Below, in pieces: positions 5,042-22,379 of a stretch of DNA of 22,379 nucleotides. Source of the stretch: a virus; IMG/VR virus record IMGVR_UViG_3300049846_000879, positions 1 to 22,379 of that record. One strand, 5' to 3'. Both the position numbers and the translations under genes were made by a program. Below the pieces are notes generated by a model that was given only the letters and a program-made list of their open reading frames with translations, ran no database searches and was not told the origin of the DNA. Position 1 is the stretch's first letter, and every line of letters starts with the position of its first letter.

Positions 5042-5361
5042 GCCGCATTCTCCTCATTAATAACTGCTAAAATATCTGCGTCTTGACAGATATATAATGT
5101 CCCATCGTCGGAACCATATTTCTGGTCAAGCCATGAACCAGAATACTGACCAAACACAACCTTTTGGCCTACTTTTAACGTTAGAACATTTCCTTTTTCT
5201 GGGATTTCGCACCAACCGGCGGTTTCGCCTAATGCCACAATTGTTCCAATACAATTGGCATGTCTTTGTGCTACGGAGTCTGGCAATACAATTCCGCCTT
5301 TAGTTTCTTTTTTGACCTCTCGTTCGATAAGAACGCGGCCAAACTTTGGCTCATACTTCAT
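5038..5361 (-). CDS. GroES-like co-chaperonin (Cpn10 family)
   Basis: 107 residues. GroES proteins form a heptameric lid on GroEL and help fold proteins in its cavity; T4 gp31 is a phage protein that replaces GroES for capsid folding. Here PKFGRVLIERE matches the first strand of Cpn10. KETKGGIVLPDS (about residues 18-29) matches the GroEL-binding mobile loop with its GIVL core. ALGE, LKVGQKVVFG and DADILAVI match later conserved parts. The ATG at 5361 was chosen over an in-frame TTG at 5376 because GAGG lies 5 nt before that ATG. A longer segment around GQYSGSWLDQKYGSDDG suggests an enlarged roof or core loop. It lies directly before the scaffold gene, which points to a role in capsid assembly. 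Confidence 0.88.
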   Translation of the reverse strand: MKYEPKFGRVLIEREVKKETKGGIVLPDSVAQRHANCIGTIVALGETAGWCEIPEKGNVLTLKVGQKVVFGQYSGSWLDQKYGSDDGTLYICQDADILAVINEENAA

Positions 5362-5388
5362 TTTTACCTCATTCAAACTCAGTTAAAC

Positions 5389-6087: not shown

Positions 6088-6480
6088 TCAGGGGAAAACA
6101 TCAGCAATATAGATAGTTCCAACAGACTTCAATTCTGGGAAAATGGAGTCCCAACCATTGCGCCCGATCACGCACAAATAGCGTATATTTCTATCTGCCA
6201 TCAAATCTCGTATAAATTTTTTGTACTCATCTCTCCAAAGATTTTTGGTTCCTGGTTTTGATGCTAAAAGAACAATGTTTAGCATTTCACCATAGCCAAT
6301 ATCGGAATACTCAATGTAAGTTGCCCCGATTGGCTCTGCATCCGAGATTAGGTAAACATCGCCACCATTTAGAATCTCATCTAACGAGTTCTTTTCACCC
6401 GGAGTTCTTTTCGCCGCCTCATTCAGGAACTCTTTTGCCTGAGAGTTCCCATAAGGCACGCGGTCAAATCTTATCGTCAT
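6088..6480 (-). CDS. GNAT-like protein next to the portal
   Basis: 130 residues with an arrangement like a small GNAT acetyltransferase fold: MTIRFDRVPYGNSQ at the start, a strand ending in VYLISDAEPIGATYIEY, then LNIVLLASKPGTKN, a helix (DEYKKFIRDLMAD), and IRYLCVIGRNGWDSIFP. The acetyl-CoA loop (R/Q-x-x-G-x-G/A) is not clear, so it may be catalytically inactive. GNAT-fold proteins near the portal are known in podoviruses, where they act as structural or internal virion proteins. No good Shine-Dalgarno is seen. A 50-nt gap separates it from the portal stop. Confidence 0.5.
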   Translation of the reverse strand: MTIRFDRVPYGNSQAKEFLNEAAKRTPGEKNSLDEILNGGDVYLISDAEPIGATYIEYSDIGYGEMLNIVLLASKPGTKNLWRDEYKKFIRDLMADRNIRYLCVIGRNGWDSIFPELKSVGTIYIADVFP

Positions 6481-6530
6481 TCAAAGCCAACATAATTGTA
6501 ATTTGCTCAATTACTTCTTGTTTGCCAGCC

Positions 6531-10360: not shown

Positions 10361-10938
10361 ACTACCTCAATAATGCCAAAACCCATTGTCTTTGAATTGA
10401 TGACTTCGTAATGTTTTAAATGGCAAACTATATTACAGTATTCATTGTAAGCCATTTTCACTTCAGGCAAGCAAATGTCATGAAAGATGACATACTTTTT
10501 AGCTAGTGGGGCGTAAAATCTAGCGTCAGTTATTGCGTTCTTATAGCTATGGCCAGCATCAATCAAAACTACATCATACTTGTCTGTAATTTCAGCTAAT
10601 GTATTAGGATCATTACTATCTGCATGAATTCCATGTGGTCGTGTAATTCCTAAAGATGCAAGTTTATCTAAAACCTCATCTCTTGCTGGCGTGGTATGTT
10701 TTTCGCCAAGATCAACGTAAGTAATTTTACTCCACGGCTTTACAGCTTGCGATAGGACGTAAAGTGAATTTCCCTCAGCAGTTCCTATCTCTAGGTACGA
10801 CTCACAACCCTGAATAAGGTTATAAACGTGCTCTAGCTCATTGTAATCTTGCACAATGGGAATTGCTAAGCGGCGCGACCGTTCTTGCAGATCTTTCCAC
10901 AAATCATCAAATGCTGGCGGTGATGTTCTTGTTGTCAT
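10357..10938 (-). CDS. Class I SAM-dependent methyltransferase (Methyltransf_24-like)
   Basis: 193 residues with a complete class I core. Motif I is YLEIGTAEGNSL (about residues 48-59), where SAM binds. An acidic residue ends strand 2 (ITYVDLGEK, D76). DVVLIDAGHSY (122-132) and IFHD (151-154) match the pattern in Methyltransf_24 enzymes and sugar-modifying methyltransferases. The substrate is unknown; its neighbours (cupin, nucleotidylyltransferase, glycosyltransferases) point to a sugar or glycan. It overlaps both neighbours by 4 nt, so it is probably made from one polycistronic message. Confidence 0.85.
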   Translation of the reverse strand: MTTRTSPPAFDDLWKDLQERSRRLAIPIVQDYNELEHVYNLIQGCESYLEIGTAEGNSLYVLSQAVKPWSKITYVDLGEKHTTPARDEVLDKLASLGITRPHGIHADSNDPNTLAEITDKYDVVLIDAGHSYKNAITDARFYAPLAKKYVIFHDICLPEVKMAYNEYCNIVCHLKHYEVINSKTMGFGIIEVV

Positions 10939-11252
10939 TTTCTTTCTATATCCTCCTCACTGCAAATTCTGCCAAACTGGCATTCTAGTACCCAAGTTGG
11001 CGTAATAGCGCTATATTTATGCCAAGTACCAGCATCTATAAGTGCGTATTCTCCTGCGGCAACACCATAAGTTTCTCCACCATTGCCAGTCATTATTCCC
11101 TCACCAGACAAAAACAACCAAAGCTCACTTCGATCCTTATGGCGCTGATGCGAACATGACTTACTTCCTCTAAACCTAAGCAACTTAATCTTAAACCACT
11201 TGCGGTCAAAAAGCGTGATGCCATAACCCCACTTATGCTTCTTTAACTGCAT
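10935..11252 (-). CDS. Single-domain cupin, sugar-isomerase-like
   Basis: 105 residues. Two cupin motifs are present: H35-x-x-H38 with E43 in CSHQRHKDRSELWLFLSG, and H78 in IDAGTWHKYSA. These would bind one metal ion in a small beta barrel. The pattern is like the C-terminal cupin of type II phosphomannose isomerase or sugar-epimerase cupins, which suggests work on a sugar phosphate or nucleotide sugar. A regulatory or structural cupin is the alternative. The ATG at 11252 was preferred to TTG at 11258 because AAGGA lies 6 nt before it. It overlaps the preceding gene's end by 20 nt and the next gene by 4 nt. Confidence 0.8.
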   Translation of the reverse strand: MQLKKHKWGYGITLFDRKWFKIKLLRFRGSKSCSHQRHKDRSELWLFLSGEGIMTGNGGETYGVAAGEYALIDAGTWHKYSAITPTWVLECQFGRICSEEDIERK

Positions 11253-11679
11253 TGACAATCCTTCTGATTATTTCTTGGCTACTTTCAACTTTACCGCCGC
11301 CAACGTTAAATAATGATTTGATTTCCATGTTGATGCAAAGATCTAATTCTGGTGTATTGCTTTCCGTTCTATCTCCACCATTAGCAAAATAGTCTGGATA
11401 TATTTCTCTTAAGTTGGCGCAAACCGTTCCGTCATCGTCTTTTGCTATTACAACGTCTTTTACGCCCTTAATCGCTCGCAATATCTCTGCCCTTTGTTCC
11501 CAAGGCTGCAAGTAGTATCCCTTTTTGCGAACAAGCCAGGAATCCGTATTCAAAATAACATAAACATCGCCATAGCGTGCAGCATCCTGAATCATTCTAA
11601 CATGGCCAACATGAAGTGGATCCATCCCTCCGCTAACGCAAATTTTACTTTTTCTTGTTTCTGTAAATTCCGGTTTCAC
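11233..11679 (-). CDS. HxGH nucleotidylyltransferase, HldE/RfaE C-domain-like
   Basis: 148 residues. HVGH at 23-26 in SGGMDPLHVGHVRMI is the nucleotide-binding signature of cytidylyltransferase-type enzymes. NGGDR (100-104) and GGGKVESS (127-134) match the HldE/RfaE adenylyltransferase branch, which activates D-glycero-beta-D-manno-heptose 1-phosphate with ATP for LPS core synthesis. The sugar kinase domain fused to it in bacterial HldE is absent and no separate kinase is seen in the window. A sugar phosphate would have to come from the host. Glycerol-phosphate or other small-alcohol phosphate substrates are alternatives. It overlaps the 2OG oxygenase stop by 4 nt. Confidence 0.85.
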   Translation of the reverse strand: MKPEFTETRKSKICVSGGMDPLHVGHVRMIQDAARYGDVYVILNTDSWLVRKKGYYLQPWEQRAEILRAIKGVKDVVIAKDDDGTVCANLREIYPDYFANGGDRTESNTPELDLCINMEIKSLFNVGGGKVESSQEIIRRIVNAVKEA

Positions 11680-12398
11680 GCAATCTCCAATACAAAGTTA
11701 ACAAGCAATCTTGGCTTATCGGTTACTTCTCTTTGCGTAACCTCATGAACAGAGATCGGAGAATTCACAAAACATACGCAGTAGTTTGCCTCATAGTTTA
11801 TAACGTTATGTGGGGCTACGCACTCATCTTTAATTTGTCTTTTCCCATATTCTTCTGGGATTTTAACAAGTTTATTTACAACAAAATCGCCGCCCGCAAA
11901 ATCTTCTGAATCCCGCATATAAAGCATTGCCGCCCATACTTCCTTTGGATGATCAAGATGCGGAGCACTAACGGTGCTTTTTTCTTTTACTGGCGTGTTT
12001 ATTCCAACCAAACAATCCAAGTAAATATCCGCAACATCCCTTCCCCTCATGCCAACTTTCATTTTTTCAAAATTATACTGAGGATGATATTGTTTTAAAT
12101 GTTTTCCAAACTTTGCAATAATCACATCGTAAAACGCCTTTGAAGTATGATACTCAATAAACTCTTTCCATATCTGCGGCGGTGACTGTTCTAAAGAGTC
12201 TACAGCAGGAACATCAACCCTCTTGTTGTTTTCGTTTATTTTTTTACCGGCAATCTTACGCCAATCAGGGCGAGAGGCCATAAGTGAGTGATACACAGAA
12301 GGAGATAAACACCTAGTAGTATATGCGTACGGGTATGGCACATCGCGCACCTCGCAGATATTAGTTAGTATGTTATGCGTATCGCTGAAGTATTTCAT
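11676..12398 (-). CDS. 2-oxoglutarate/Fe(II)-dependent oxygenase
   Basis: 240 residues. The iron-binding triad is visible: H147-x-D149 in SAPHLDHPKEVW and H218 in NSPISVHEVTQ. R230 in KPRLLVNF would bind 2-oxoglutarate. FAGGDFVV (167-174) is the strand typical of the double-stranded beta-helix fold. Such enzymes hydroxylate or otherwise oxidise a C-H bond using O2 and 2-oxoglutarate, and occur often in phage sugar clusters. The substrate is unknown; context favours a sugar or a surface-linked group. It starts within the end of the methyltransferase gene (26-nt overlap). Confidence 0.83.
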   Translation of the reverse strand: MKYFSDTHNILTNICEVRDVPYPYAYTTRCLSPSVYHSLMASRPDWRKIAGKKINENNKRVDVPAVDSLEQSPPQIWKEFIEYHTSKAFYDVIIAKFGKHLKQYHPQYNFEKMKVGMRGRDVADIYLDCLVGINTPVKEKSTVSAPHLDHPKEVWAAMLYMRDSEDFAGGDFVVNKLVKIPEEYGKRQIKDECVAPHNVINYEANYCVCFVNSPISVHEVTQREVTDKPRLLVNFVLEIA

Positions 12399-13044
12399 TG
12401 TTTGCTATATCTGGTACGTATCGTTTCTGAAATGGCTTCTTAAATGCGGCATCGTGTTTCTTTTGAAACGCCGCATAAATAAACAACCGTGTTTTGCCAC
12501 GAGATAAATCTTCAAGTTCCTGCTGGCCGCGCTCAAGAACAATTTTATCGAACGATAGATTGGCACAATTGCCCTCTCTGTCGCCGATCTTTAAAAAAAG
12601 CAGTCTATAATCATTAGCCGTAGCTAAAGCCTCAAACAAGATTGGACAATAGTTATAAAACCCGTGATTGGGCCACGGTGCGAACGGTAGATGGTGAAAC
12701 ATTACTCCACCAACCTTGCAGCAATCGTGTATTGTTTCAAAAATTCTTCCCTGATCAAAGCAATGTTCGGACGTGCCGATATTTGTAACCAGGCTTGCTT
12801 GCGTTTCGTGCTTATACGGCTCGTTAAGGTCAACTTGCTTTGTGTACTTGGTGCTATTGATATCTAGCGCTATGTAGTCTTTAAAACCGTTTTTAATGTA
12901 GAAGTCGTAAGTAGAATCGGCTTTGAATATGTGGCTGGATGTGTAACGTTGACTTCCAAGCTCTAAGATTAGATCCTTGTCTGGTAACTCTACGTTGCTC
13001 AATATATCTAAAATGCTAATTGCCGATGCTGGATTGAATGTCAC
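12373..13044 (-). CDS. Class I SAM-dependent methyltransferase-like protein
   Basis: 223 residues. A class I methyltransferase core is recognisable: a motif-I-like LILELGSQRYTSS (less Gly-rich than usual), a strand-2 acidic end in YIALDIN, and a motif IV/V-like stretch LVTNIGTSEHCFDQGRIF followed by CCKVGGVMFHHLPF. The last part after motif V matches methyltransferases that report the reaction in a final strand. The weak motif I means binding of SAM is likely but not certain. It lies between epimerase and 2OG oxygenase genes, with a 4-nt overlap to the epimerase stop, so a sugar or lipid-linked substrate is inferred. Confidence 0.7.
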   Translation of the reverse strand: MTFNPASAISILDILSNVELPDKDLILELGSQRYTSSHIFKADSTYDFYIKNGFKDYIALDINSTKYTKQVDLNEPYKHETQASLVTNIGTSEHCFDQGRIFETIHDCCKVGGVMFHHLPFAPWPNHGFYNYCPILFEALATANDYRLLFLKIGDREGNCANLSFDKIVLERGQQELEDLSRGKTRLFIYAAFQKKHDAAFKKPFQKRYVPDIANNEILQRYA

Positions 13045-14120
13045 AGTTTTTCTCTCCAGGTTCTTGGTAGCTTGTCAGATTCGATCTCAATCGGGAACGA
13101 ATAGTCAAATATCTTTGGTTTCATTGCTGCTGCCATTTCGGCAATGCAATCTTCTAGCGATTGTTGCGGCTCAAAACCAAGAAGCCTGCGTGCTTTGTCG
13201 CTAGAGCAGTATGCCTCTTTAACTGTGTCGGTAACTGGGCGTGGTGGCAGATATACGCGCTCTGTCACAATCCCAGTTACCTTCTCGCACAGGCTTAGCA
13301 ACTCATTAATCGTAATCTCTCCACCATCCGGACCGATGTTTACAACTTCTCCATCTGCGGCCCCATCAACCATTTTTACAAGTGAGTGAAGGCAATCCTT
13401 TACTGGAGAAAAACAACGTTTCTGATTTCCATCGCCATAAATATAAACGGGCAAACCAAGTTTTAGACGGTTTAAGAAAATTGAAACCACGTTCCGATAC
13501 GGAGTTATCTCTTGCTTTGTACCTATGATGTTGTGTGGTACTGCAGTTGTCCATTTTACGTCGTGCGTTTCGCATAAAACTTTAAGAGTTTGTTCGGCGG
13601 CTACTTTTGCAATCCCGTATGGATCGATTGGCTTGGTTTCATGGCTCTCTCTAAATGGCAAATCAATTTTAGCTGAATTATTGCTTGTTCTATCTTCCTC
13701 ATTCCAGCAAGTCATTTGTCCGTTACCATACCTAGCCATGCTACTCATATTAACAATTCGCTTGGCACCAGCAGCAATAGCGGCGCTAAATACTGAAACC
13801 GAGGCTTCGTAGATATTCTTAGTAATGAACGACGGGCTAAAAACGCTGAAACCCTCAGCAGCAGTAGCAGCACAATGCACCACAACATCAGGTTTAATTA
13901 AAGAAAGCGCCTCTTTCAAACTATTAAATTCCCTGCAGTCAAGGCCCCTCCTGCTTCCGTCCGGCATATTAAAATAGGTAAATCTAGCTTTAGCTGGAAT
14001 ATTTTTAAAATCGCCGCAAATAAAGTTATCATTGCCATGTACTTCATGACCATCAGCTATTAACGCATCAGCTAAATGCGATCCTAGAAATCCCGCTATT
14101 CCTGTTATAAAAATTTTCAC
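13041..14120 (-). CDS. NAD-dependent epimerase/dehydratase (extended SDR)
   Basis: 359 residues from a GTG start. The NAD(P) motif is GIAGFLG (7-13). The extended SDR active site is visible: serines in VNMSSMARYG (126-127) and YGIAK (Y168, K172). The rest of the Rossmann and substrate domains follow, with LPPRPV-type and YCSSDKARRLLGFEP segments typical of UDP-glucose 4-epimerase-like enzymes. It would interconvert or dehydrate a nucleotide sugar; the exact substrate cannot be read from sequence. The GTG overlaps the stop of the 45-residue gene by 4 nt (GTGA), which supports that unusual start. Confidence 0.87.
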   Translation of the reverse strand: MKIFITGIAGFLGSHLADALIADGHEVHGNDNFICGDFKNIPAKARFTYFNMPDGSRRGLDCREFNSLKEALSLIKPDVVVHCAATAAEGFSVFSPSFITKNIYEASVSVFSAAIAAGAKRIVNMSSMARYGNGQMTCWNEEDRTSNNSAKIDLPFRESHETKPIDPYGIAKVAAEQTLKVLCETHDVKWTTAVPHNIIGTKQEITPYRNVVSIFLNRLKLGLPVYIYGDGNQKRCFSPVKDCLHSLVKMVDGAADGEVVNIGPDGGEITINELLSLCEKVTGIVTERVYLPPRPVTDTVKEAYCSSDKARRLLGFEPQQSLEDCIAEMAAAMKPKIFDYSFPIEIESDKLPRTWREKL

Positions 14121-14254
14121 TTCTTTTTCTTTTTCTCAACGCCTTTAATGGTTCCTTTATTCGCTGAAGCGTAAAAAACGCTTTCGCCCTTCTTTGCGCC
14201 ATATTCTTTCTTCATAGCTGTTTTGATCTTTTTACCTTTTTTAGTTAGAGGCAT
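14117..14254 (-). CDS. Small Lys-rich phage protein (45 aa)
   Basis: A short gene: ATG at 14254 with an AAGGAG ribosome site 5 nt upstream, stop TGA at 14117-14119. The stop overlaps the GTG of the epimerase by 4 nt, which argues it is translated and couples to it. It begins MPLTKKGKKIKTAMKKEYG and ends in a run of lysines; the middle is GAKKGESVFYASANKGTIKG. I recall similar small Lys-rich proteins near head genes in environmental phages, which supports a real gene. A DNA- or RNA-contact role is possible from charge alone. It overlaps the preceding glycosyltransferase end by 14 nt. Confidence 0.75.
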   Translation of the reverse strand: MPLTKKGKKIKTAMKKEYGAKKGESVFYASANKGTIKGVEKKKKK

Positions 14255-14960
14255 ACCATCTCCTTATGTTTGAATTGTTAATAAAACTTGCTAGCTTCTG
14301 CTTTTCTAAAGCAAGGTAGTTACTGCACTTAGAAAAAACATAACTGTCCCTTCTGTTCCACTCTTGCGCCCTAATTCCACTATGCGTAGCATCGGCAATT
14401 CCCTTATCGCTTGGCTTGATATGCGCCAATTCGTAGTTCTTTAAATGCGTGAAGCAGCCATTAGCTTTTGCTATATCCACAGTCCAAGTATCGCAATACC
14501 AATGCAAAAAAATAGGCGGGAGAAAATAGCCCATAGTCTCAATATATTCCCGTGTAACGATTGGATGTGGAGTGCCATCTTTATCGCGACTATCCTGAAA
14601 GTGATATACATGGACTTTATTTTTAAGCGCATTGTAGTGCTCTAGTAATTCTTTGTCCCAAAGAGGAGTTGTAAAAACGATGTCATCGCTGCCAAGCATA
14701 AACAATTTGTTATCCTTATTCTGCAATGCCAGATCGCAAAGATCATTCCACTTTTGTACTGTCGGTAGCCATTCTTGCGTAGACCATTGAGTAACGCCAG
14801 GCCAATATCCAGCTAAGTTGAATTGATATTGTTTTGATTCATCCTTTTGATACATCAAATAAACGTTGGGAAGATTCTCCGCAGTTTTTGAAATGCTATC
14901 AAGCAGCTTTTTGCATCCTTCCGGCCTTCCCTTGCTGGGAACTAGGATAGCTATGTTCAT
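14241..14960 (-). CDS. GT-A-like glycosyltransferase
   Basis: 239 residues. The first strand MNIAILVPSKGRPEG is typical of GT2-like enzymes. FMLGSDDIVF (residues 87-96) carries SDD at the usual DxD position. A later stretch (FLHWYCDTWTVDIAKANG) includes an acceptor-side W/D region. It probably transfers a sugar from a nucleotide donor. The ATG at 14960 was chosen over an upstream in-frame start at 15032 because it overlaps the small membrane gene's stop by 4 nt (ATGA). The acceptor is unknown. Confidence 0.72.
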   Translation of the reverse strand: MNIAILVPSKGRPEGCKKLLDSISKTAENLPNVYLMYQKDESKQYQFNLAGYWPGVTQWSTQEWLPTVQKWNDLCDLALQNKDNKLFMLGSDDIVFTTPLWDKELLEHYNALKNKVHVYHFQDSRDKDGTPHPIVTREYIETMGYFLPPIFLHWYCDTWTVDIAKANGCFTHLKNYELAHIKPSDKGIADATHSGIRAQEWNRRDSYVFSKCSNYLALEKQKLASFINNSNIRRWYASN

Positions 14961-15058
14961 AGCGCCCCGCCATATTGACGGAAGAGGCTTGCTACGACAA
15001 ATGTGCCGCAAATAATCGCCCCATAAAGGCACAGCATTGCTTTTTGCTTATTGCTCAT
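14957..15058 (-). CDS. Tiny single-pass membrane protein (33 aa)
   Basis: ATG at 15058 to TGA at 14957. The protein begins MSNKQKAMLCLYGAIICGTF and ends SLFRQYGGAL. Residues about 7-25 are hydrophobic, with a basic N-terminus, so one membrane span is predicted. It overlaps the stop of the GT8-like gene upstream by 4 nt (ATGA) and the next gene's start by 4 nt (ATGA). Such paired 4-nt overlaps are strong evidence that this frame is translated. The role is unknown; its place between two glycosyltransferases would fit a small membrane partner for one of them. Confidence 0.7.
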   Translation of the reverse strand: MSNKQKAMLCLYGAIICGTFVVASLFRQYGGAL

Positions 15059-15819
15059 CTTATAACCTCATGAACCGCGTCGCTTGACTCCATGTAATTC
15101 TCGTATTCATCAAGCCACAGATCTGCATACGGGACGTCTTTTTTATCATCGAACCACGGCCCACCCTCAGTATAGTGAAGCACATCAATGTTTTCTACAA
15201 TCGGGGATACACCTGCGATAAAGTTGTATGAATAAGGCAACGATCCAATCGCTGAATCTGGAAGCCAGCTAAACGTGTGCATGTCTACACCACGCAACTT
15301 GTTTACTTTGTCCTCGGTCAGCTTGCGATTCAGCGGGTGGCCACAATTCCACAAAACAAACGACGACCAATTCTTGCGCTGATAGGGCAACTGCTCTCTG
15401 TCATCCATTTTCTTGGTGCGGCCATCAACAATGTGGTTGTGCTTAACGCACATCACTGCATATTTGTCGTCAGCTAATTCAAACAGTTTTTTTACATCGG
15501 ATAGAAAAATCATATCCGCATCAAGAAAAAGCGCCCAACCTTTATATTCGTTGAGCGCAGGAACTAAAAACCTTGTATGAGAAAACTCAGTTGTAAATGG
15601 CTTGCCATCAATTAGATCAAGCCATTCTCCAGTGGATCCAATAGTAACCCACGGGCGAGAAAACCTTCCCGACTTGCGTAAATCGCGATGCTTAACATGA
15701 GTTATTTGTAATTGAGATTTGGTTCGCTTCTTAATTGAGTGCTCGCATACTGAGCTAGCGATGGGTTCCCTGGAGTCATAGCCGATGAAGATTTTATATA
15801 GTGGTTTATCACTTTCCAT
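15055..15819 (-). CDS. Glycosyltransferase, GT8-like
   Basis: 254 residues. The N-terminus KIFIGYDSREPIASSV is the family-like opening. WALFLDADMIFLSDVKKL holds the DAD motif (100-102) that binds the metal and nucleotide sugar. HYTEGGPWF near residue 215-224 matches the C-terminal His/Gly motif of GT8-like LPS-type glucosyl- or galactosyltransferases. The first 118 nt overlap the previous gene in another frame. Its start is trusted because the strand-1 motif begins within 9 residues of the ATG. The sugar donor and acceptor are unknown. Confidence 0.8.
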   Translation of the reverse strand: MESDKPLYKIFIGYDSREPIASSVCEHSIKKRTKSQLQITHVKHRDLRKSGRFSRPWVTIGSTGEWLDLIDGKPFTTEFSHTRFLVPALNEYKGWALFLDADMIFLSDVKKLFELADDKYAVMCVKHNHIVDGRTKKMDDREQLPYQRKNWSSFVLWNCGHPLNRKLTEDKVNKLRGVDMHTFSWLPDSAIGSLPYSYNFIAGVSPIVENIDVLHYTEGGPWFDDKKDVPYADLWLDEYENYMESSDAVHEVIR

Positions 15820-16535
15820 ATATCACCACGCTCAATCTCATTAAGGCTCATTTGGTGGGCACTTAACCAGCGCAATAACATTTCTCTATATGTGGTGTCA
15901 AGATGAATTTCACCCACTACATCTTGAAACGATCCAATCGCGCTATGATCTTTATCCGAGACCACAGGTATTCCGCGCCTCACAGCCTCAATCGCCACGG
16001 AGGAATTAAACGTGATTATTTTTGCAACGTGTTCCCAATTTATCGGATCGGTTTCGCTTTTATCACGAACAAGTGATGCTGAACTTTCTTGTAGCGCATT
16101 ATGCACCCATTTCGCTTTATCTATCCCAAGCCATTCGCAAACATAATCACTGGGAGGGCATATCAACGTATAGCCATCGCGCGGCTTATACGGCAACAAC
16201 TCTAGTGAATGATCTTGTCCAAATTCTGCACTTGAACTTGAATCCCATTTCGCTTGAGTTCCTCGACAAGAGATTCGGTATTTTCCACCGTAGTGGCCAG
16301 CGCCCCAATAGCCCCTGTCAACATTGAACCAAGGTAGTAGTTTCTTTTCCGCAGCCTTGAAAATCTCAGCCGTACCTCGCAAAATGCCATAAGCAATATG
16401 AACGTCAGCATCAGCCAAGCCACTATTAGCCATGTAGATAGAAACATTGTGACCCCCAACTAACAAGCCTTTGTATAACGACTGGGTAACGCGCTTGTTT
16501 ATCTCGTGCTCAGTCTGGTAAATTGCAATTTTCAT
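15702..16535 (-). CDS. Capsule-polysaccharide-synthesis-like protein (KpsS/LipB-type C-terminal pattern)
   Basis: 277 residues. The first strand MKIAIYQTEHEINKRVTQSL and LLVGGHNVSIYMAN resemble GT-B-type nucleotide-sugar folds. IITFNSSVAIEAVRRGIPVV (173-192) resembles the sugar-binding segment of capsule synthesis proteins that attach Kdo-type or other sugars. Residues after about 240 lie within the overlap with the next gene and look like filler (SSSAMTPGNPSLAQYAS), so the true functional end may be before it. The start overlaps the 71-residue gene's stop by 4 nt. Function is moderately supported; the donor is unknown. Confidence 0.6.
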   Translation of the reverse strand: MKIAIYQTEHEINKRVTQSLYKGLLVGGHNVSIYMANSGLADADVHIAYGILRGTAEIFKAAEKKLLPWFNVDRGYWGAGHYGGKYRISCRGTQAKWDSSSSAEFGQDHSLELLPYKPRDGYTLICPPSDYVCEWLGIDKAKWVHNALQESSASLVRDKSETDPINWEHVAKIITFNSSVAIEAVRRGIPVVSDKDHSAIGSFQDVVGEIHLDTTYREMLLRWLSAHQMSLNEIERGDIWKVINHYIKSSSAMTPGNPSLAQYASTQLRSEPNLNYK

Positions 16536-16747: not shown

Positions 16748-18168
16748 TTTCGCTTGATAATCGGCTTGGTTCGATACGGATCAACATTGTCCATACCATA
16801 CTCCTTCCTCGCCTTGAAGAATTTATTTAATGCCTGCTGCCTTTCAAGCGACTTCACAGTAACCAACTTATCATGCCATACACGGCTCATAAGCTCAAAA
16901 GCGTCGCAAAAATTGCTACTCCAATCGTGGTATGGAACTTGTGAATATCTCTTACGTTCTTCATCCCACTTGTAATGATAATGCATCAACGAGCGAACCA
17001 AATCCTTACACCTATCCGCGTTAATCCAGCACTTTGGCAACGTCATCCTTGCCGCCATCTCCGATGATCCCTGGTCTGTCGCACGTATCAGGTTCATCTT
17101 AATACCAAACTCCCGTGCCTGCTCAATCATAGACCTGCCACCAGCCTCAATAAACTTACTCGCCGCGTCATGCGGAACAAAATGCGCCATCGCATGATGA
17201 TACACATAATTCCTCCGATGCGCATGCGCCGGTATATCATCCCCAAAATGCCAGCGCTGAATCGCACCAGTATCATTATTCCTCTCATCTACAACAATTT
17301 GCCGACCTAACAACACTTCACAATAATGCCGAACGTCTTGAAAATTGTTCTCATACGAGTCAATTACAAAAATCTCGCCATCGCCAACCTGATAAAACAC
17401 AATCGAGTTCGCATCACCATACCCACGATCCCACGCCGTATATACTGGATAATTCGGATCGTGCTGAACCCTATTGCTAATCCGATCCTTCCTAACGTGC
17501 TGCGCATACACCGCACCACTATACCGAGTGTCAAACTCACCCTCCCAAATATGCCGATACGCAACAGGATCAATCTTCTTTAAATGCCGCCGCTCCGCAT
17601 CCAACACATCAGGAAAAAACGGATTGTCATTCCAATTCACCTTCAAAACAATACTGTCATCCCGCTTGTTCTCTACAAACCGCTCCCACGTCGGATCACT
17701 CGCCTGCTTCGGATTAAAACTAATCCATATCTCACTACCAGTCTTACGTATCGTCGGTATCAACGTCTCCCACGACGAATCACTCACCGCTTGCGCCTCC
17801 TCTACCCAAGCTACATCCACACCCTCGTAACTCTTGATCTCAGCAGGATTATGCCGCAAACCCTTAAACGCAAACTCCGTCCCGTTCGCACCCTTAATAC
17901 TCTGCTTCTGTACCTCATAAAATGCAGTCATAGCAGGATGCCGACCAATAATATCAGCCAACAACTTATGAACCGAATCACTAATGCTTACCTGCAACTC
18001 CCTACAGCATAACACCCTAATCGGCTCTCGCATCCCCCTCACCAACAACATAATCGCAAACGCAACACTCTTGCCACCACCACGACCACCATACACAACC
18101 TTGTACCTAGACCGATCCTGCATCACAGCAGCCCACGGCGGTATCTCAAGCTCAATCACATCGCTCAT
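16744..18168 (-). CDS. terL: Terminase large subunit (PBSX-like TerL)
   Basis: 474 residues. TerL uses ATP to drive DNA into the prohead and cuts it to length. Walker A is GGRGGGKS (27-34) and Walker B is VDVAWVEEA (117-125). The nuclease domain starts with a first acidic residue in YTAWDRGYGDANSIVF (D247), and a late acidic site lies in HDWSSNFCDAFE near the C-terminus. Length fits PBSX-type TerL. The start is the ATG at 18168; a GTG three bases earlier is possible. No Shine-Dalgarno is seen. Codons in the first two thirds end mostly in G or T (GAG, AAG, CAG, TTG, GGT, CGG), unlike the portal and sugar genes. This may show a separate origin or strong strand bias. Confidence 0.93.
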   Translation of the reverse strand: MSDVIELEIPPWAAVMQDRSRYKVVYGGRGGGKSVAFAIMLLVRGMREPIRVLCCRELQVSISDSVHKLLADIIGRHPAMTAFYEVQKQSIKGANGTEFAFKGLRHNPAEIKSYEGVDVAWVEEAQAVSDSSWETLIPTIRKTGSEIWISFNPKQASDPTWERFVENKRDDSIVLKVNWNDNPFFPDVLDAERRHLKKIDPVAYRHIWEGEFDTRYSGAVYAQHVRKDRISNRVQHDPNYPVYTAWDRGYGDANSIVFYQVGDGEIFVIDSYENNFQDVRHYCEVLLGRQIVVDERNNDTGAIQRWHFGDDIPAHAHRRNYVYHHAMAHFVPHDAASKFIEAGGRSMIEQAREFGIKMNLIRATDQGSSEMAARMTLPKCWINADRCKDLVRSLMHYHYKWDEERKRYSQVPYHDWSSNFCDAFELMSRVWHDKLVTVKSLERQQALNKFFKARKEYGMDNVDPYRTKPIIKRK

Positions 18169-18189
18169 CACAACATAATACTACAAAAA

Positions 18190-18366
18190 TTAGCCGTAGC
18201 CAAAAAAGGAAGCCTTCGGGCATTCAGGGGGAATACCACGAGGGTCATAGCCCCACACAAACTCCTCACCGCAATCGCACCAGCAAACAGTAGACACGCA
18301 AACGCGGTAATCCTTAAACGGCTCCACATAAGCCGCAGTCCACACAACACTATGAAGCTCACTCAT
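18190..18366 (-). CDS. Small Cys-rich protein upstream of terL (58 aa)
   Basis: ATG at 18366 to TAA at 18190. The protein begins MSELHSVVWTAAYVEPFKDY, then has five Cys: one in YRVCVS, a cluster in STVCWCDCGEEF, and one in GIPPECPKAS. This resembles a small zinc-ribbon or knuckle, but no standard spacing is certain. The stretch is G/T-biased in its codons like the start of terL, which supports this frame over the alternative overlapping frame. No Shine-Dalgarno was found. It ends 21 nt before terL. Confidence 0.5.
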   Translation of the reverse strand: MSELHSVVWTAAYVEPFKDYRVCVSTVCWCDCGEEFVWGYDPRGIPPECPKASFFGYG

Positions 18367-18579
18367 AAAAATTTACTACAACAAAAAAAGGAAGCTAACC
18401 ACAGAAAAAAGGGTATACCCTATTTTAAAAGTACAGTTTGTAGGTGAAGAAACTAGCCACCCGCCTCGCCTAAAAGGCCATACGCCACGACCCCCCGCCG
18501 GTCAGACTGCTTGCTTGCGCTCTAGTCGCTGCTACAGCCTGCCACTATGCACCCTACAATTAACATCACCAGAGCACTG
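18367..18579. other. Non-coding stretch with 12-bp palindrome
   Basis: This 213-nt gap between two small genes shows no convincing coding frame on either strand. At 18410-18421 lies AGGGTATACCCT, a perfect 12-bp palindrome flanked by A/T runs, which could be an operator. A GC-rich patch follows near 18490. No tRNA, terminator stem with U-tract, or repeat was recognised. Being close to the terminase genes, it might contain packaging-site sequence, but nothing here proves it. Confidence 0.4.
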
Positions 18580-18645
18580 TCATAGATAATGCCTAAGTAT
18601 AAGCGCTGCTATGATAACAACTATTAGCCATACTGGTATATACAT
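18580..18645 (-). CDS. Tiny hydrophobic membrane peptide (21 aa)
   Basis: ATG at 18645 to TGA at 18580, only 2 nt after the stop of the TerS-position gene, so translational coupling is likely. It begins MYIPVWLIVVIIAALILRHY, a single hydrophobic span with a basic end. Phages often keep peptides of this kind with a PxWL start, but I cannot name the role. The sequence is too regular in hydrophobicity to be chance, yet short enough that confidence stays moderate. Confidence 0.5.
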   Translation of the reverse strand: MYIPVWLIVVIIAALILRHYL

Positions 18646-18647
18646 AA

Positions 18648-19025
18648 CTACTCACTGTCTATTGTGACGCTGTCATCTTCTGGTTTATTATTTAACGGTC
18701 GTACAACTAAGTTAATCTGCACTGGCGCTATGACTTTAGCTTGTTGCTGTGAGTCACGCTCTGGGTATGCAATGCAAATCATTTCCTTTGAGGCCTGCAG
18801 CGCTGTCTTATCATCACCATGCGCAATGATACTGTTGATCCTGTTAAGCGCTGGCCCTAAGCTTTCCTGCGCAATGTCAGTCATCATTTCTGCCGTTATC
18901 TTACCGCCTGGCGCTATTGGAGCGCTTGACTCATGATGCCCATGCGTGGCCCTGCTATACATGCCAGCGGGCAATACTTCCTGCTTTGGCGGCGTGTAGC
19001 CGTAGCCATATGGATCGCTTGTCAT
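18648..19025 (-). CDS. Protein in terminase-small-subunit position
   Basis: 125 residues from ATG 19025. A TTG at 19061 would add 12 residues but would overlap the promoter. The N-terminus is Pro/Tyr/Gly rich (YGYGYTPPKQEVLPAG). The helical middle (LGPALNRINSIIAHGD, ALQASKEMICIAYPERD) is reminiscent of the helical motif found in some TerS-like and phage DNA-packaging accessory proteins. No clear helix-turn-helix is seen. It is two small genes upstream of terL, which supports a packaging role, but TerS identity is inferred from place alone. Confidence 0.45.
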   Translation of the reverse strand: MTSDPYGYGYTPPKQEVLPAGMYSRATHGHHESSAPIAPGGKITAEMMTDIAQESLGPALNRINSIIAHGDDKTALQASKEMICIAYPERDSQQQAKVIAPVQINLVVRPLNNKPEDDSVTIDSE

Positions 19026-19031
19026 GCGGGT

Positions 19032-19061
19032 ATTATATGCACAAGCTGGCACTGTAGGCAA
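19032..19061 (-). promoter_or_regulatory. Leftward promoter candidate, leaderless start at TerS-position gene
   Basis: On the minus strand, -10 TATAAT (19037 to 19032) is preceded 18 bp upstream by TTGCCT (19061 to 19056, four of six -35 positions). The predicted start, about 7 nt after the -10, falls on the A of the ATG at 19025. There is no ribosome-binding site between, so the message may be leaderless. The spacer contains GTGCCAG, a partial match to the 12-bp repeat. This would be the main promoter of the late minus-strand genes. Confidence 0.5.
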
Positions 19062-19165
19062 GATGCAACGTTAAAACGCCGAAACGTTAGCACAACATCG
19101 CACAACACAACACACTAGCCAACTACATAATTTGCTAACATCGTTTATATTGAACGCTCGTAAAG

Positions 19166-19238
19166 TGTGACAGACTCAAGCTGTTGTTAATTAAGCAATG
19201 TTCCAAGGTCAATAGACCCTGTCACAGACCCTGGCACA
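19166..19238. repeat. Left arm of 73-bp inverted repeat
   Basis: Matches the reverse complement of 19402-19474 at about 55 of 73 positions (hand count, no gaps). Contains four copies of the 12-mer: TGTGACAGACTC (+), TGTTCCAAGGTC (+), and two head-to-tail minus copies at 19215-19226 and 19227-19238. Differences gather between copies, so the 12-mers are the conserved part. Confidence 0.8.
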
Positions 19239-19401
19239 AATAAGCTATTGAAATAAAACCAATGTTCCAAGGTGACAAGGTATTATGTGAAAAATCGATA
19301 TACATATATGCAGACAAATATATAACTTATAGAAAACGGTCTAAACCCTGGAACATCTGTCACAAACTCTATTTAATCATTATACTACAATAACTTCCAA
19401 G

Positions 19402-19474
19402 TGTGACAGGGTATGTGACAAGGTATAGCTACCCTGGAACATTCATTATAATACAGCAACTTAAGTCTGGCACA
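19402..19474. repeat. Right arm of 73-bp inverted repeat
   Basis: Inverted partner of 19166-19238. Two plus copies lie exactly head to tail, TGTGACAGGGTA then TGTGACAAGGTA, followed after 4 nt by a minus copy at 19430-19441 and another at 19463-19474. The positions are the exact mirror of the left arm about 19320. Confidence 0.8.
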
Positions 19475-19497
19475 AGCATGACTAAACGATCGTTCAA

Positions 19498-19710
19498 GTG
19501 GTGTTTTTAGCTGTTTTAGGGCTGTTTTTGCAGTTAACATTAGTTTTAATACACCAAGCTGCATTAACAATAACTGATAGTTTTATTGTATCCATGCAGG
19601 CAACAGACTGTTTCTTATTTAGTGTAATTTAGCAGTTGCAATCAGTGTTACCCAGTGCTATGTATTGGTCATGCAAGGCAATCAAGCTTAGCAGTTTAAC
19701 GGGGGATTAT
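19498..19710. other. Leader of the rightward genes, no gene seen
   Basis: No coding frame with a usable start is convincing. A short direct repeat CTGTTTT occurs twice near 19511-19530. GGGGGA at 19701-19706 is the ribosome site of the next gene. A rightward promoter is expected here, but no hexamer pair stands out. Confidence 0.4.
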
Positions 19711-19908
19711 ATGAATCTATTTAGACAGACTAAAGATGGCGCACTAGATAAACAATACTTACGAATCTGCGCGGTGCATAAATTACTAGACGCGGCGCGC
19801 ATTGATAAATCTACGGCAATCAATATGTTGAGCCAGCGGGGTATAGACAACCCGCGCAGGCTAGTAGAGCTTTGGCTTGCTAATCCAAAACAGAACTTTT
19901 CAGCATAG
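19711..19908 (+). CDS. Small early-type protein (65 aa), function unknown
   Basis: The ATG at 19711 has GGGGGA 4 nt upstream, so it was preferred over an in-frame start at 19636. The protein is helical, with charged segments (MNLFRQTKDGALDKQYLRIC, LVELWLANPKQ) and STAINMLSQRGIDNPRRLVE, which could form an HTH-like helical pair but without a clear pattern. It is the first gene after the repeat region on the plus strand, so it is a candidate for a repeat-binding or early regulatory factor; this is inference from position. Confidence 0.65.
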   Translation: MNLFRQTKDGALDKQYLRICAVHKLLDAARIDKSTAINMLSQRGIDNPRRLVELWLANPKQNFSA

Positions 19909-19921
19909 GGAGTCACACACC

Positions 19922-20098
19922 ATGACACACTACATGATAATAGAAAAGAAAAACCCGCTTGCAGTACATGCTTATTGCCACAGCAAAGAATCAGCGCAAC
20001 GCTGGCTTGATGTAAACGCGCCGGAATATGCGGCAAAGGGTTATTTTATGGATAAAACACTCACCGCTGATTCGTTTGAAATTAAGGAAAGGGCTTAG
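19922..20098 (+). CDS. Small phage protein (58 aa), function unknown
   Basis: The ATG at 19922 has GGGAG 9 nt upstream; a longer frame from 19877 lacks that support and overlaps the gene before. The sequence begins MTHYMIIEKKNPLAVHAYCH and ends YFMDKTLTADSFEIKERA, a mixed alpha/beta pattern with W (QRWLDVNAPEYAAKGYF). I recall similar short phage proteins of unknown role. No metal or membrane motif. It is followed 2 nt later by the next gene's ATG. Confidence 0.65.
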   Translation: MTHYMIIEKKNPLAVHAYCHSKESAQRWLDVNAPEYAAKGYFMDKTLTADSFEIKERA

Positions 20099-20100
20099 CC

Positions 20101-20283
20101 ATGAGTCAGCAAAAATTATTCACGATGTACCATGAGGCGTTACAACTATCAATAAAGCGGCAGCTTACTGATAAAGACCGCGAATTAGTGGCCGATATAT
20201 ACCACGAAACTACAATGATGAGGGACGGGGATTTAAGAAAAGATATTTTATTTATTATCAAAAATAGATTGTGGCGGATGTAA
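20101..20283 (+). CDS. Small helical protein (60 aa), function unknown
   Basis: ATG at 20101, 2 nt after the preceding stop, with AAGGAAAGGG upstream. The protein is mainly helical and charged (MSQQKLFTMYHEALQLSIKR, DKDRELVADIYHETTMM, RKDILFIIKNRLWRM). No known motif. It belongs to the early-type plus-strand set. Confidence 0.6.
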   Translation: MSQQKLFTMYHEALQLSIKRQLTDKDRELVADIYHETTMMRDGDLRKDILFIIKNRLWRM

Positions 20284-20347
20284 TAACTATCAAAAACCAT
20301 CGCAATCTTTAGTTAGGCTGCGCTGGTTGCAGGAATTTTAGTTACAC

Positions 20348-20399
20348 TTGACGCGCCAAGCGTTTTACGCTAGGCAAGACTAATCGGGCAATGTTGCCC
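20348..20399 (+). promoter_or_regulatory. Possible promoter and operator region upstream of the HTH gene
   Basis: TTGACG at 20348-20353 could serve as a -35 (five of six); the -10 17 bp later (TAGGCA) is poor. Two inverted repeats lie within or after it: AGCGT-TTT-ACGCT (20359-20371) and GGGCAA-TG-TTGCCC (20386-20399), the second ending 5 nt before the ATG of the HTH gene. Such repeats would suit an autoregulating HTH protein, or a stem that controls translation. Binding is not shown. Confidence 0.35.
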
Positions 20400-20404
20400 A
20401 ATCA

Positions 20405-20614
20405 ATGCGAGGGTGCGTGGATTCAGAAACATTCAGAAACATAGCAACAGAGCTTTACGGCCCCGCATGGGTTAGGGTGCTTGCTGATGCAACTAATTTG
20501 CACACGCGCTCAATCCGTGAAATGGGTGAGGGTAAACGGTTTATTCCAATAAGACTGGCGGAACTACTGCTGGCGCTGCAATCCTTCTCGCATGGAGCCA
20601 AGCGCAATGAATAA
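20405..20614 (+). CDS. Small helix-turn-helix DNA-binding protein
   Basis: 69 residues. ELYGPAWVRVLADATNLHTR and SIREMGEGKRFIPIRLAELL give a helix-turn-helix like those seen in small phage proteins that begin with a YGP-W-x-x-A-LA pattern. A GTG at 20417 behind GAGGG is an alternative start. The stop overlaps the VapE-type helicase start by 8 nt, so the two are probably made together. It could act as repressor, regulator of its own hairpin-containing upstream region, or an origin-binding accessory. Confidence 0.7.
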   Translation: MRGCVDSETFRNIATELYGPAWVRVLADATNLHTRSIREMGEGKRFIPIRLAELLLALQSFSHGAKRNE

Positions 20615-21887
20615 CGATAATCAACTGGTAACGGTAAGCACTGGCGGCGAAGTCATCCCGTTTGTTAAGGGCAACCGTGAAGTAGAGATAGACGGGCAGT
20701 TATACCGCATTGATGGCAAATCCGTAAACAACACCCTTTTAATGTTAGAACGCACCCAAACGCTTCATGGCGTGTTTATTTACGATATTTTTGCCGATGA
20801 TATAATGGTTGCCAAATGCCCACCATGGGAGCATGCAACAGACTTTTCACCCCACAGACTAGTTGATCCCGATGATGTAACACGCTTTCGCGGGTGGCTT
20901 GAAACAATCGGCATCAAAACAGGCTCAAACGATGCTCACGCCGCTATCGTAACAGCCGCAAAGCGTAACACCGTAAACCCGCCAAAAGAATACTTTGAAA
21001 CACTACATTGGGACGGAATAGCTAGGCTAGACACCTGGCTAGCAGACTTTTGTGGCGCTGATTACCAAAACCCGGATTATTTAAAACACGTTGGCAGCAA
21101 GTGGTTAATTGGAGCGGTAGCGCGTATCTACGAGCCTGGATGCAAGTTTGACACAGCGCTCATTTTAGAAGGTGCGCCCTACCTGGGCAAGTCTGAGGTT
21201 TTCCGTATTTTATCCACGTTCAACGGAAAAGATTATTTCTGCGATCAAAACTTAGACTTTCACAAAGTTGACTCCCTGCTGGTGCTGCAAGGCAAGCTGA
21301 TTTTTGAAATGGCCGAACTTGCTAACTTTCGTCGCGCTGAATCTGAAGACGTTAAAAGCTTCTTAAGTAGGCAGATTGACGAATACCGCTCGCCCTATGC
21401 CCGTAAAGTAGGACGCAGGCCGCGCATGTTCGTGATCGGTGGTAGCGTGAACCCTAACGGCGGCTACTTGAAAGACCCAACCGGAAACAGGCGGTTTTGG
21501 CCTGTAGCCTGCCGCCATATACAATTAGACGCCTTACGGCTGATTAGCTCGCAACTATGGGCAGAGGCAATCGTGAGATACAAAGCAAACGAGCGATATT
21601 GGCTTTTGGATGACGAATACCGCCTAGCACAAATCGAACAAGAACTACGCATGGAAGAAGATGCGCTAGCCGATGACATACAAAAGGCAGTGGATGAAAT
21701 TGTACTGGGCCGCGATGATTACGGCCTAAGAATTAGCGAGGTTTTAGACAAAATGGGAATCGAGCCGAACCAGAAAAGCAACGCTATTGCCTATCGCGTC
21801 AAGAGCTACCTAACCTCAAATAACTGGCGCGAGGAACGGCCACGGGTTGAAGGAAAACAGCTTCGCCTATGGTATAAACAACAATAG
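20607..21887 (+). CDS. VapE-family helicase/NTPase, replication protein
   Basis: 426 residues from ATG 20607 (GGAG 9 nt upstream), overlapping the HTH gene stop. VapE-type proteins act as DNA helicase/NTPase in phage replication. The Walker A is EGAPYLGKS (188-196), Walker B is KLIFEMAEL (230-238), and a conserved DPTGNRRFWPV occurs at 290-300, as in VapE/D5-like primase-helicases. The stretch HWDGIARLDTWLADF (134-148) is the usual VapE lead-in. No primase domain is visible in the short N-terminal 100 residues. C-terminal part (IQKAVDEIVLGRDDYGL to the end) looks like a winged helix. The nearby symmetric repeat region makes a replication role likely. Confidence 0.9.
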   Translation: MNNDNQLVTVSTGGEVIPFVKGNREVEIDGQLYRIDGKSVNNTLLMLERTQTLHGVFIYDIFADDIMVAKCPPWEHATDFSPHRLVDPDDVTRFRGWLETIGIKTGSNDAHAAIVTAAKRNTVNPPKEYFETLHWDGIARLDTWLADFCGADYQNPDYLKHVGSKWLIGAVARIYEPGCKFDTALILEGAPYLGKSEVFRILSTFNGKDYFCDQNLDFHKVDSLLVLQGKLIFEMAELANFRRAESEDVKSFLSRQIDEYRSPYARKVGRRPRMFVIGGSVNPNGGYLKDPTGNRRFWPVACRHIQLDALRLISSQLWAEAIVRYKANERYWLLDDEYRLAQIEQELRMEEDALADDIQKAVDEIVLGRDDYGLRISEVLDKMGIEPNQKSNAIAYRVKSYLTSNNWREERPRVEGKQLRLWYKQQ

Positions 21888-21889
21888 TA

Positions 21890-21918
21890 TTGACTTGTTG
21901 CAACAGGTGCTATATAGT
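21890..21918 (+). promoter_or_regulatory. Strong sigma-70-like promoter
   Basis: TTGACT (21890-21895, five of six) and TATAGT (21913-21918, four of six) with a 17-bp spacer. It would transcribe the secreted peptide gene and what follows. It is the clearest promoter on the plus strand in this window. Confidence 0.65.
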
Positions 21919-21924
21919 GTAACC

Positions 21925-21946
21925 AAGTTAGCAATTAAGCTAACTT
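21925..21946 (+). promoter_or_regulatory. Perfect 8-bp inverted repeat in the leader
   Basis: AAGTTAGC and GCTAACTT separated by 6 nt, lying about 7 nt after the predicted -10 and before the ribosome site GGGGG. It could be an operator at the start point or a 5' stem that alters message stability or start access. Neither function is shown. Confidence 0.5.
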
Positions 21947-21962
21947 ATTTATGGGGGTTACG

Positions 21963-22133
21963 ATGAAGCTAATTAACACGTTTATACTAGCACTAACCGC
22001 CGCTTTGGTGGCGTTAGTGATTTACACCTACACTGCACGACCTGCATTAGCTGCTACTGATTGGCAGTGCATGAATCAATGTACAATGCAAGGCTATATG
22101 TACGGCTATTGCCAGAAAGTGTGCGGGTATTAA
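21963..22133 (+). CDS. Secreted small Cys peptide with twin CX3C motif
   Basis: 56 residues. The ATG at 21963 follows GGGGG by 6 nt; an ATG at 21951 would contain that ribosome site, so 21963 is chosen. A signal peptide is clear: MKLINTF then a hydrophobic run LALTAALVALVIYTYT, with likely cleavage after ARPALAA. The mature part of about 25 residues holds four Cys in CMNQC and CQKVC separated by TMQGYMYGY. CX3C-X9-CX3C is a helical-hairpin type disulfide pattern. In the periplasm the two pairs would form disulfides. Target and role are unknown. Confidence 0.75.
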   Translation: MKLINTFILALTAALVALVIYTYTARPALAATDWQCMNQCTMQGYMYGYCQKVCGY

Positions 22134-22135
22134 TC

Positions 22136-22309
22136 ATGACTAACAAACAATTCACGCGAAACCTACGCCTAACAACTGAACCGCGTTTTCTAACGCCGTT
22201 TGAGCAACGCTTAATTCGTTATCACCAGCGCGACGAAGCCGAGGCGCGTAACGCATTCTTATGGGGTGCCGGTGTAATGTTCTTATGGGGCTTGTTATGT
22301 ATATTATAG
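22136..22309 (+). CDS. Small membrane protein (57 aa)
   Basis: ATG at 22136 starts 2 nt after the preceding stop. The first 35 residues are charged (MTNKQFTRNLRLTTEPRFLT, RYHQRDEAEARN). Residues about 40-57 form one membrane span (FLWGAGVMFLWGLLCIL). The N-terminus is probably on the cytoplasmic side. The in-frame start at 22061 overlaps the secreted peptide gene and is not preferred. Function unknown. Confidence 0.65.
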   Translation: MTNKQFTRNLRLTTEPRFLTPFEQRLIRYHQRDEAEARNAFLWGAGVMFLWGLLCIL

Positions 22310-22379
22310 CATTTAGAAACCAGTTCCATCAGCGCATTTACCGCGATGTAAAAGCCGCGAATGAGCAGCAGGCTTATGT
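22297..22379 (+). CDS. Partial gene start at right edge
   Basis: ATG at 22297 with GGGG 6 nt upstream, open to the edge for 27 codons. It reads MYIIAFRNQFHQRIYRDVKA and is helical. It overlaps the membrane protein's end by 13 nt. Only the start is visible, so no function can be assigned. Confidence 0.5.
   Translation, partial: MYIIAFRNQFHQRIYRDVKAANEQQAY

Follow-up and report, generated by a model that had tools for sequence, protein, structure and literature searches.

The window, by which we mean the whole stretch of DNA analysed, is a virus record of 22,379 bases and possibly a fragment, in which the rightward genes start near 19.6 kb and no tRNA was found. Toward its right end, the gene for a VapE-like helicase is followed by a promoter-like site, a perfect inverted repeat, the gene for a 56-residue precursor of an exported peptide with two CX3C pairs, and a second short reading frame (Table 1). 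The preliminary description regarded promoter, hairpin and peptide as an isolated unit. This view could not be maintained, as the helicase gene ends 2 nt before the promoter-like site and another open reading frame begins directly behind the peptide gene. The latter frame, which gave no family match among the Pfam, NCBIfam and PHROGs models, is likely co-transcribed with the peptide gene, and because it starts only 2 nt downstream the peptide gene seems to belong to a short operon.

Table 1 Features of the peptide locus and its surroundings in the window
Feature	Position	Strand	Basis or remark
Virion genes, portal-like and terminase-like genes		-	
VapE-like helicase	20592-21887	+	PF05272, 1.4e-66; PHROG DNA helicase
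Promoter-like site, -35 TTGACT / -10 TATAGT, 17-nt spacer	21890-21918	+	10/12 consensus matches; consensus only
10-bp palindrome TGTTGCAACA in promoter spacer	21896-21905		Single occurrence in the window
Perfect 8-bp inverted repeat AAGTTAGC-6-GCTAACTT, 6-nt loop	21925-21946	+	At the predicted transcript start
Shine-Dalgarno-like GGGGG	21953-21957	+	5 nt before ATG; read from sequence
56-residue precursor, exported twin-CX3C peptide	21963-22133	+	
N-terminal export segment	21963-22052	+	Hydropathy and AXA rule
25-residue domain TDWQC-MNQ-C-TMQGYMYGY-C-QKV-CGY	22056-22130	+	
57-residue open reading frame, hydrophobic C-terminus	22136-22309	+	Starts 2 nt past the peptide stop

Elsewhere in the window, the portal-like and terminase-like genes are separated by a series of genes for sugar and nucleotide functions (8687-16535, minus strand), which includes an NDP-sugar epimerase (13041-14120, phrog_540) and a methyltransferase-like gene (10357-10938). 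These are probable auxiliary glycan genes, the others of the series being labelled by eye. The structural region also holds a gene for a GroES-like co-chaperonin (5038-5376, minus strand; phrog_3188, E 7e-12). Between the leftward and the rightward genes sits a 73-nt inverted repeat (19166-19238 / 19402-19474), the arms of which are 75% complementary and 163 nt apart, and which is a possible origin or regulatory region. A near-perfect palindrome around GGGTATACCC is found at 18405-18426.

The promoter had initially been called strong. A promoter-like site is indeed present, but its match to the consensus is decent rather than exceptional, and 18 such sites occur in 18100-22379, where 8.5 are expected. 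The palindrome in its spacer is a possible operator. The perfect 8-bp inverted repeat just after the promoter was confirmed and may act as a 5' stabiliser or as an operator. The repeat is real, but such stems are not above chance in number: the window has four perfect 8-bp stems with a 3-8 nt loop, whereas 20 Markov shuffles gave 2.6 on average, and the fold of the leader RNA has a z of -1.58, with 15 of 200 shuffles equally good. Only the position of the repeat, approximately 7 nt past the -10 element, stands out and is suggestive. Perfect stems of at least 7 bp were looked for upstream of 20 related genes: none lies close to a start codon, and three genes have one placed 77-115 nt upstream. 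A conserved leader hairpin was rejected from this comparison, and the proposal that promoter, hairpin and peptide form one conserved module found no support, the hairpin not exceeding chance and not being conserved upstream of the relatives. Reading the hairpin as an operator or riboswitch was likewise set aside, as no Rfam family reached the gathering threshold and no second exact copy was found.

The export segment of the window precursor shows a hydropathy maximum of 2.88 over 12 residues, one Lys among the first eight residues and an ALA|A site. By hydropathy and the AXA rule, a signal-peptidase site is possible after A30 (ALA|A) or A31, and cleavage after residue 30 or 31 would leave 25-26 residues; alternatively, the segment may stay in place as an uncleaved membrane anchor. 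The window protein has four Cys in CX3C-X9-CX3C spacing as well as the D, G, Y and terminal aromatic residue, so that all features of the family described below are present. A hydrophobic N-terminal stretch is found by hydropathy in all 25 sequences scored, and in most of them an AXA-like site precedes the domain. Two members contain a lipobox (IAGC in L018, LTAC in L050), while L015 and L057 resemble uncleaved anchors more on inspection of their hydropathy. The inspection of hydropathy and of AXA and lipobox sites supports the original proposal of a 56-residue precursor that would release an exported Cys peptide about 25 residues long. A zinc or redox motif was considered and rejected, as the domain has neither CXXC nor a conserved His.

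The C-terminal 25 residues define a family with the signature D-x2-C-x3-C-x3-G-x2-Y-x2-C-x3-C-[SG]-Y. A strict motif, composed of D, the four Cys, G, Y and a final codon TWY at fixed spacing, was scanned against 2.9 million viral contigs and yielded 19 stretches on 18 contigs, every one of which encodes a small open reading frame with the domain. A decoy made of the same codons with CX4C spacing gave a single match in the same scan, the translation of which looks unrelated. A looser motif matched 56 stretches, of which 17 were judged members by reading and one (L056) was doubtful and excluded from all alignments and counts; the other 38, being Cys-rich or stop-containing frames, were dropped. 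A profile-guided scan added three more (L116, L117 and L118), and the total besides the window amounts to 22 viral contigs, representing 19 lineages after near-identical contigs were merged (L005/L024/L047 and L034/L049). The 25-column profile scored in 19 of 19 viral records, which were chosen for holding a member. The domain occurs in one or two tandem copies per protein and rarely in three (L098).

In the genome collection, the family was found in 14 stretches (genome contigs) from metagenome-assembled genomes (MAGs) that carry the labels Accumulibacter, Rhodocyclaceae, Dechloromonas, Oxalobacteraceae, Legionellaceae, Alphaproteobacteria, Syntrophaceae, Thermodesulfobacterium, Bacillota and others. 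Profile A1, built from 22 proteins, was positive in 6 of 399 genomes in the order of genome G006 (E 0.001), and profile A3, built from 45 of 49 domain copies (omitting the two near-duplicate L013 copies, copy 1 of L064, and L056), was positive in 3 of 398 genomes in its phylum (E 1e-5), the centre genome G006 being counted in both cases. The family is rare and patchy in the sampled genomes. Homologues with the same CX3C spacing and conserved cysteines, on which the preliminary description had staked its case, were thus sought and found, and the domains almost certainly constitute a real family of exported Cys domains. One viral record, IMGVR_UViG_3300024982_000004, contains two copies of a two-domain gene (L005 and L013) about 34 kb apart and is possibly made up of two related prophages or a chimeric contig. 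In a Thermodesulfobacterium MAG (L070), a second exported protein with several CX3C pairs (6349-6777, plus strand) is encoded beside a family member.

Positions fixed by the search pattern are not countable as conserved. Among the positions that the strict pattern does not demand, an aromatic residue (Y/F/W) follows the D in 41 of 45 domain copies, a Ser precedes the last residue in 40 of 45 and a Thr precedes the D in 33 of 45. The Tyr after the Gly (38 of 45 copies) weighs less, since it was required by the looser motif and partly by the genome-scan motif. With L056 left aside, 16 of 18 phage proteins terminate exactly at the end of the domain. In all ten pairs compared pN is well below pS, with synonymous sites saturated in seven pairs, for which the ratios are qualitative only, and members of the family are under strong purifying selection. 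The simple net charge of the domain ranges from -2 to +3 and is mostly 0 or +1.

AlphaFold (AF2), with alignments of 22 and 45 rows, predicts a two-helix hairpin (pLDDT 81-82, pTM 0.40-0.43) with helices at precursor residues 34-42 and 47-54, in agreement with the helical hairpin pattern first suggested for the peptide. The domain is probably a disulfide-bonded helical hairpin, for which a C1-C4, C2-C3 pairing is predicted by analogy. Foldseek and the viral fold library returned no match at E 0.001. VIA-align placed the olive pollen allergen Ole e 6 (1ss3) second, with a Z of 3.6 and an rmsd of 1.7 over 30 of 30 residues, with thionins and viscotoxins near it in the ranking and some unrelated helix pairs as well; as Z values below 5 are given to unrelated helix pairs too, the structural match to Ole e 6, the best sensible one, is modest. 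Residues C10/14/24/28 of the model fall on 12/16/26/30 of Ole e 6, and alignment of Ole e 6 to the sequence profile yields this register too, with the four Cys all matched. This agreement between profile and structural alignment on the Cys register strengthens the likeness. At E values no higher than 1, the Ole_e_6 model picks up 38 of the 45 domain copies, the best of ten members attaining 26.0 bits versus the curated cut-off of 27.7 (PF09253), and the window protein has no match to it.

Ole e 6 (PF09253, PDB 1ss3) has the identical CX3C-X9-CX3C spacing and a Gly in the loop, but it is a plant protein of unknown function with a long tail and six Cys, whereas the window protein has four. It is described as two antiparallel helices with a short loop and six cysteines (PMC8198727). 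The window protein also conforms to the Cys motif of the plant alpha-hairpinins, and two helices are predicted for it. The alpha-hairpinins are secreted, have multi-domain precursors and include peptides with protease-inhibiting activity. They are plant defence peptides to which no sequence relation was shown, and the phage domains are, by comparison, near-neutral in charge. Their 4C motif is given as CX3C-X4-20-CX3C and their fold as helix-loop-helix with two disulfides (PMC11591084). Furthermore, the C-x3-C-x3-GY-x2-GYC stretch of the domain resembles the helix and loop of actinodefensin and arthropod defensins (NF038042, PF01097). Defensins of the CS-alpha-beta type have six Cys and a terminal CXC. 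The phage peptide differs from them in having four Cys only and no CXC end. The window protein scores 15.2 bits versus a cut-off of 20.4 for PF01097 and 17.2 versus a cut-off of 65 for NF038042; one of ten members (L034) exceeds the PF01097 cut-off, by 0.4 bit, and none of the ten reaches that of NF038042. Some relatives resemble the CS-alpha-beta defensin models as much as Ole e 6. The likeness to plant peptides is read here as convergence on a stapled hairpin.

The genomic surroundings of the relatives are diverse. A CI/HTH repressor of the S24/HTH_3 or HTH_3 type precedes the gene in 3 of 19 phage lineages: in L005 the gene begins 2 nt past the stop codon of an S24/HTH_3 repressor, in L034 it shares four bases with an HTH_3 regulator, and in L028 one other open reading frame separates it from an S24/HTH_3 repressor upstream. 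In the remaining 16 lineages the gene is not behind a repressor, and the window gene also has no adjoining one. Other members are found near terminase genes (L114, L118, L059 and L050), near replication genes (L009 and L051) or near YopX genes, and in two phage-type loci that are related to each other the peptide gene is immediately preceded by a CsrA-like gene (L029, 4343-4636, minus strand; L074, 2035-2364, plus strand). Some relatives, L061, L066 and L067 among them, are encoded in bacterial chromosomes outside obvious prophages. The slot behind the repressor was compared in 11 isolated phage lineages with L005-related repressors, hand-picked from the 60 matches listed. The next gene encodes an exported or membrane-bound protein in 4 of the 11 (Bordetella IFTN9, Acidovorax AP1, Pseudomonas PfDIW6 and Pseudomonas P52), among them all three closest of the lineages compared, and this protein differs from the twin-CX3C family. 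The other seven have no exported protein in the slot, the next gene product being not exported in six and no gene directly following in one. The post-repressor slot often, but not always, holds envelope proteins.

Searches with the window peptide by tblastn gave no match at E 10 in isolated phages and plasmids, and neither the peptide nor the VapE-like helicase retrieved anything from the viral contigs when used as a seed. The two-copy relative L066 matched 25 phage and 45 plasmid records, all weakly; those examined were chance matches, namely a protein of a P. aeruginosa phage in which the Cys are arranged differently, a Cys-free open reading frame of a Streptomyces phage, and S. meliloti frames located at the gene for an AI-2E transporter. 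L034 as a query found no isolated-phage match at E 1, and with these three queries no convincing relative was obtained from 50,697 isolated-phage records. No Pfam, NCBIfam, PHROGs or PADLOC model claims the family convincingly, and the PMC text searched contained neither the motif strings tried nor an account of a phage-encoded disulfide-rich peptide belonging to it. Within these libraries (Pfam, NCBIfam, PHROGs, PADLOC and PMC text) the family is apparently unnamed. Small exported phage proteins are easily overlooked by annotation and by database models, and a compact, recognisable domain that some 20 phage lineages have in common with a number of bacterial genomes offers a family open to naming, tracking and testing. 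The few exclusion proteins known to act in the periplasm may thereby gain a new scaffold.

As for function, the protein probably acts in the envelope. The hydrophobic N-terminal segment would export a mini-protein carrying one or two, rarely three, copies of the 25-residue domain, and the disulfides would form in the oxidising periplasm. The hairpin, either released or held in place by a lipid or an uncleaved anchor, could then bind one envelope or phage-entry component through its Tyr/Gly-rich face and in this way alter the infected cell or lysogen. In the window phage, the early-region promoter would provide the peptide soon after infection. The likeliest use would be superinfection exclusion, in which a receptor or an incoming tail protein would be blocked; Llp, Spackle and Ltp do so with other scaffolds. 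The periplasm and superinfection had already been named as an arena, and we judge this the likeliest one; action on host competitors, put forward at the same time, appears less likely given a domain net charge of -2 to +3. We consider the chances roughly balanced for the overall reading of an exported, envelope-acting mini-protein with superinfection exclusion as its likeliest use. Exclusion specifically is a tentative assignment by analogy, somewhat short of probable, and is the best single guess because Ltp, Llp and Spackle are all small exported phage proteins that stop a second infection.

Ltp consists of helical repeats without Cys staples and belongs to a Gram-positive host. Ltp of the S. 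thermophilus phage TP-J34 is a superinfection-exclusion lipoprotein that is encoded in the lysogeny module and, like the present proteins, is small, exported, tethered and repeat-built (PMC3952083). The T5 Llp/Cor lipoproteins and T4 Spackle are small, exported, disulfide-bearing proteins that act from the periplasm to prevent secondary infection (PMC9586334, PMC7677548). These differ from the twin-CX3C family in size and fold and have one disulfide instead of a CX3C hairpin. Among Ltp, Llp and Spackle, one is encoded in a lysogeny module and one is an early gene (PMC3952083, PMC9586334, PMC7677548). The place behind a repressor in 3 of 19 lineages and the exported or membrane proteins in 4 of the 11 slots compared count in favour of exclusion; the 16 lineages with the gene elsewhere, the window gene with no repressor beside it and the seven slots lacking an exported protein count against. 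The chromosomal relatives outside obvious prophages also speak against exclusion, being unexpected for a pure superinfection gene. The PHROG of the Cor exclusion protein matched 1 of 22 members at E 0.0099, which is too weak to count, and the best E value of the PADLOC defence models among the 22 members was 0.021, at chance level. A bolder reading, which we regard as unlikely, is that of a mobile exclusion family of tandem 25-residue disulfide-stapled helical hairpins, which would have passed between unrelated Gram-negative phages and also to bacterial chromosomes, would have converged on the alpha-hairpinin/Ole e 6 scaffold and might be the smallest known exclusion modules.

Several other functions would be compatible with an exported hairpin. 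The chromosomal location of L061, L066 and L067 outside obvious phage genes would suit another kind of envelope-acting lysogenic-conversion gene (moron), which would inhibit or steady a periplasmic host enzyme, protease or transporter to the benefit of the cell or lysogen and without excluding phages. Alpha-hairpinins with the same Cys pattern indeed vary in their binding and inhibitory activities (PMC11591084). However, no partner gene recurs across the loci inspected, except for the CsrA-like neighbour of the related pair L029/L074, and there is no enzyme-like motif, so that we rate a moron of this kind as somewhat unlikely, yet the foremost competitor of superinfection exclusion. It is quite improbable that the peptide is a secreted antimicrobial against competing bacteria in the manner of plant alpha-hairpinins or defensins, even though it has the same 4C motif CX3C-X4-20-CX3C and weak matches to the defensin-type and Ole e 6 models. 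The domain charge (-2 to +3, mostly 0 or +1) is unlike that of typical cationic peptides, export leads to the periplasm, two members are lipid-anchored by motif, and no immunity or export gene was recognised nearby in the loci inspected by eye.

Phage lysis cassettes include small exported proteins with Cys and lipoboxes. This precedent is what recommends a lysis-timing or spanin-like accessory gene acting on the envelope late in infection; we find this highly improbable, as no lysis cassette was recognised beside the gene in the loci read by eye and the window gene follows a replication helicase. The regulated part of interest could finally be the promoter and inverted repeat themselves, as the operator of an early-region repressor, with the peptide real but incidental. 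The palindromes at 21896-21905 and 21925-21946 do flank the -10 element, but neither recurs exactly in the window and chance alone is expected to yield such stems. There is thus little probability for this last reading, and the conservation of the peptide across phages is independent of the promoter and the repeat.
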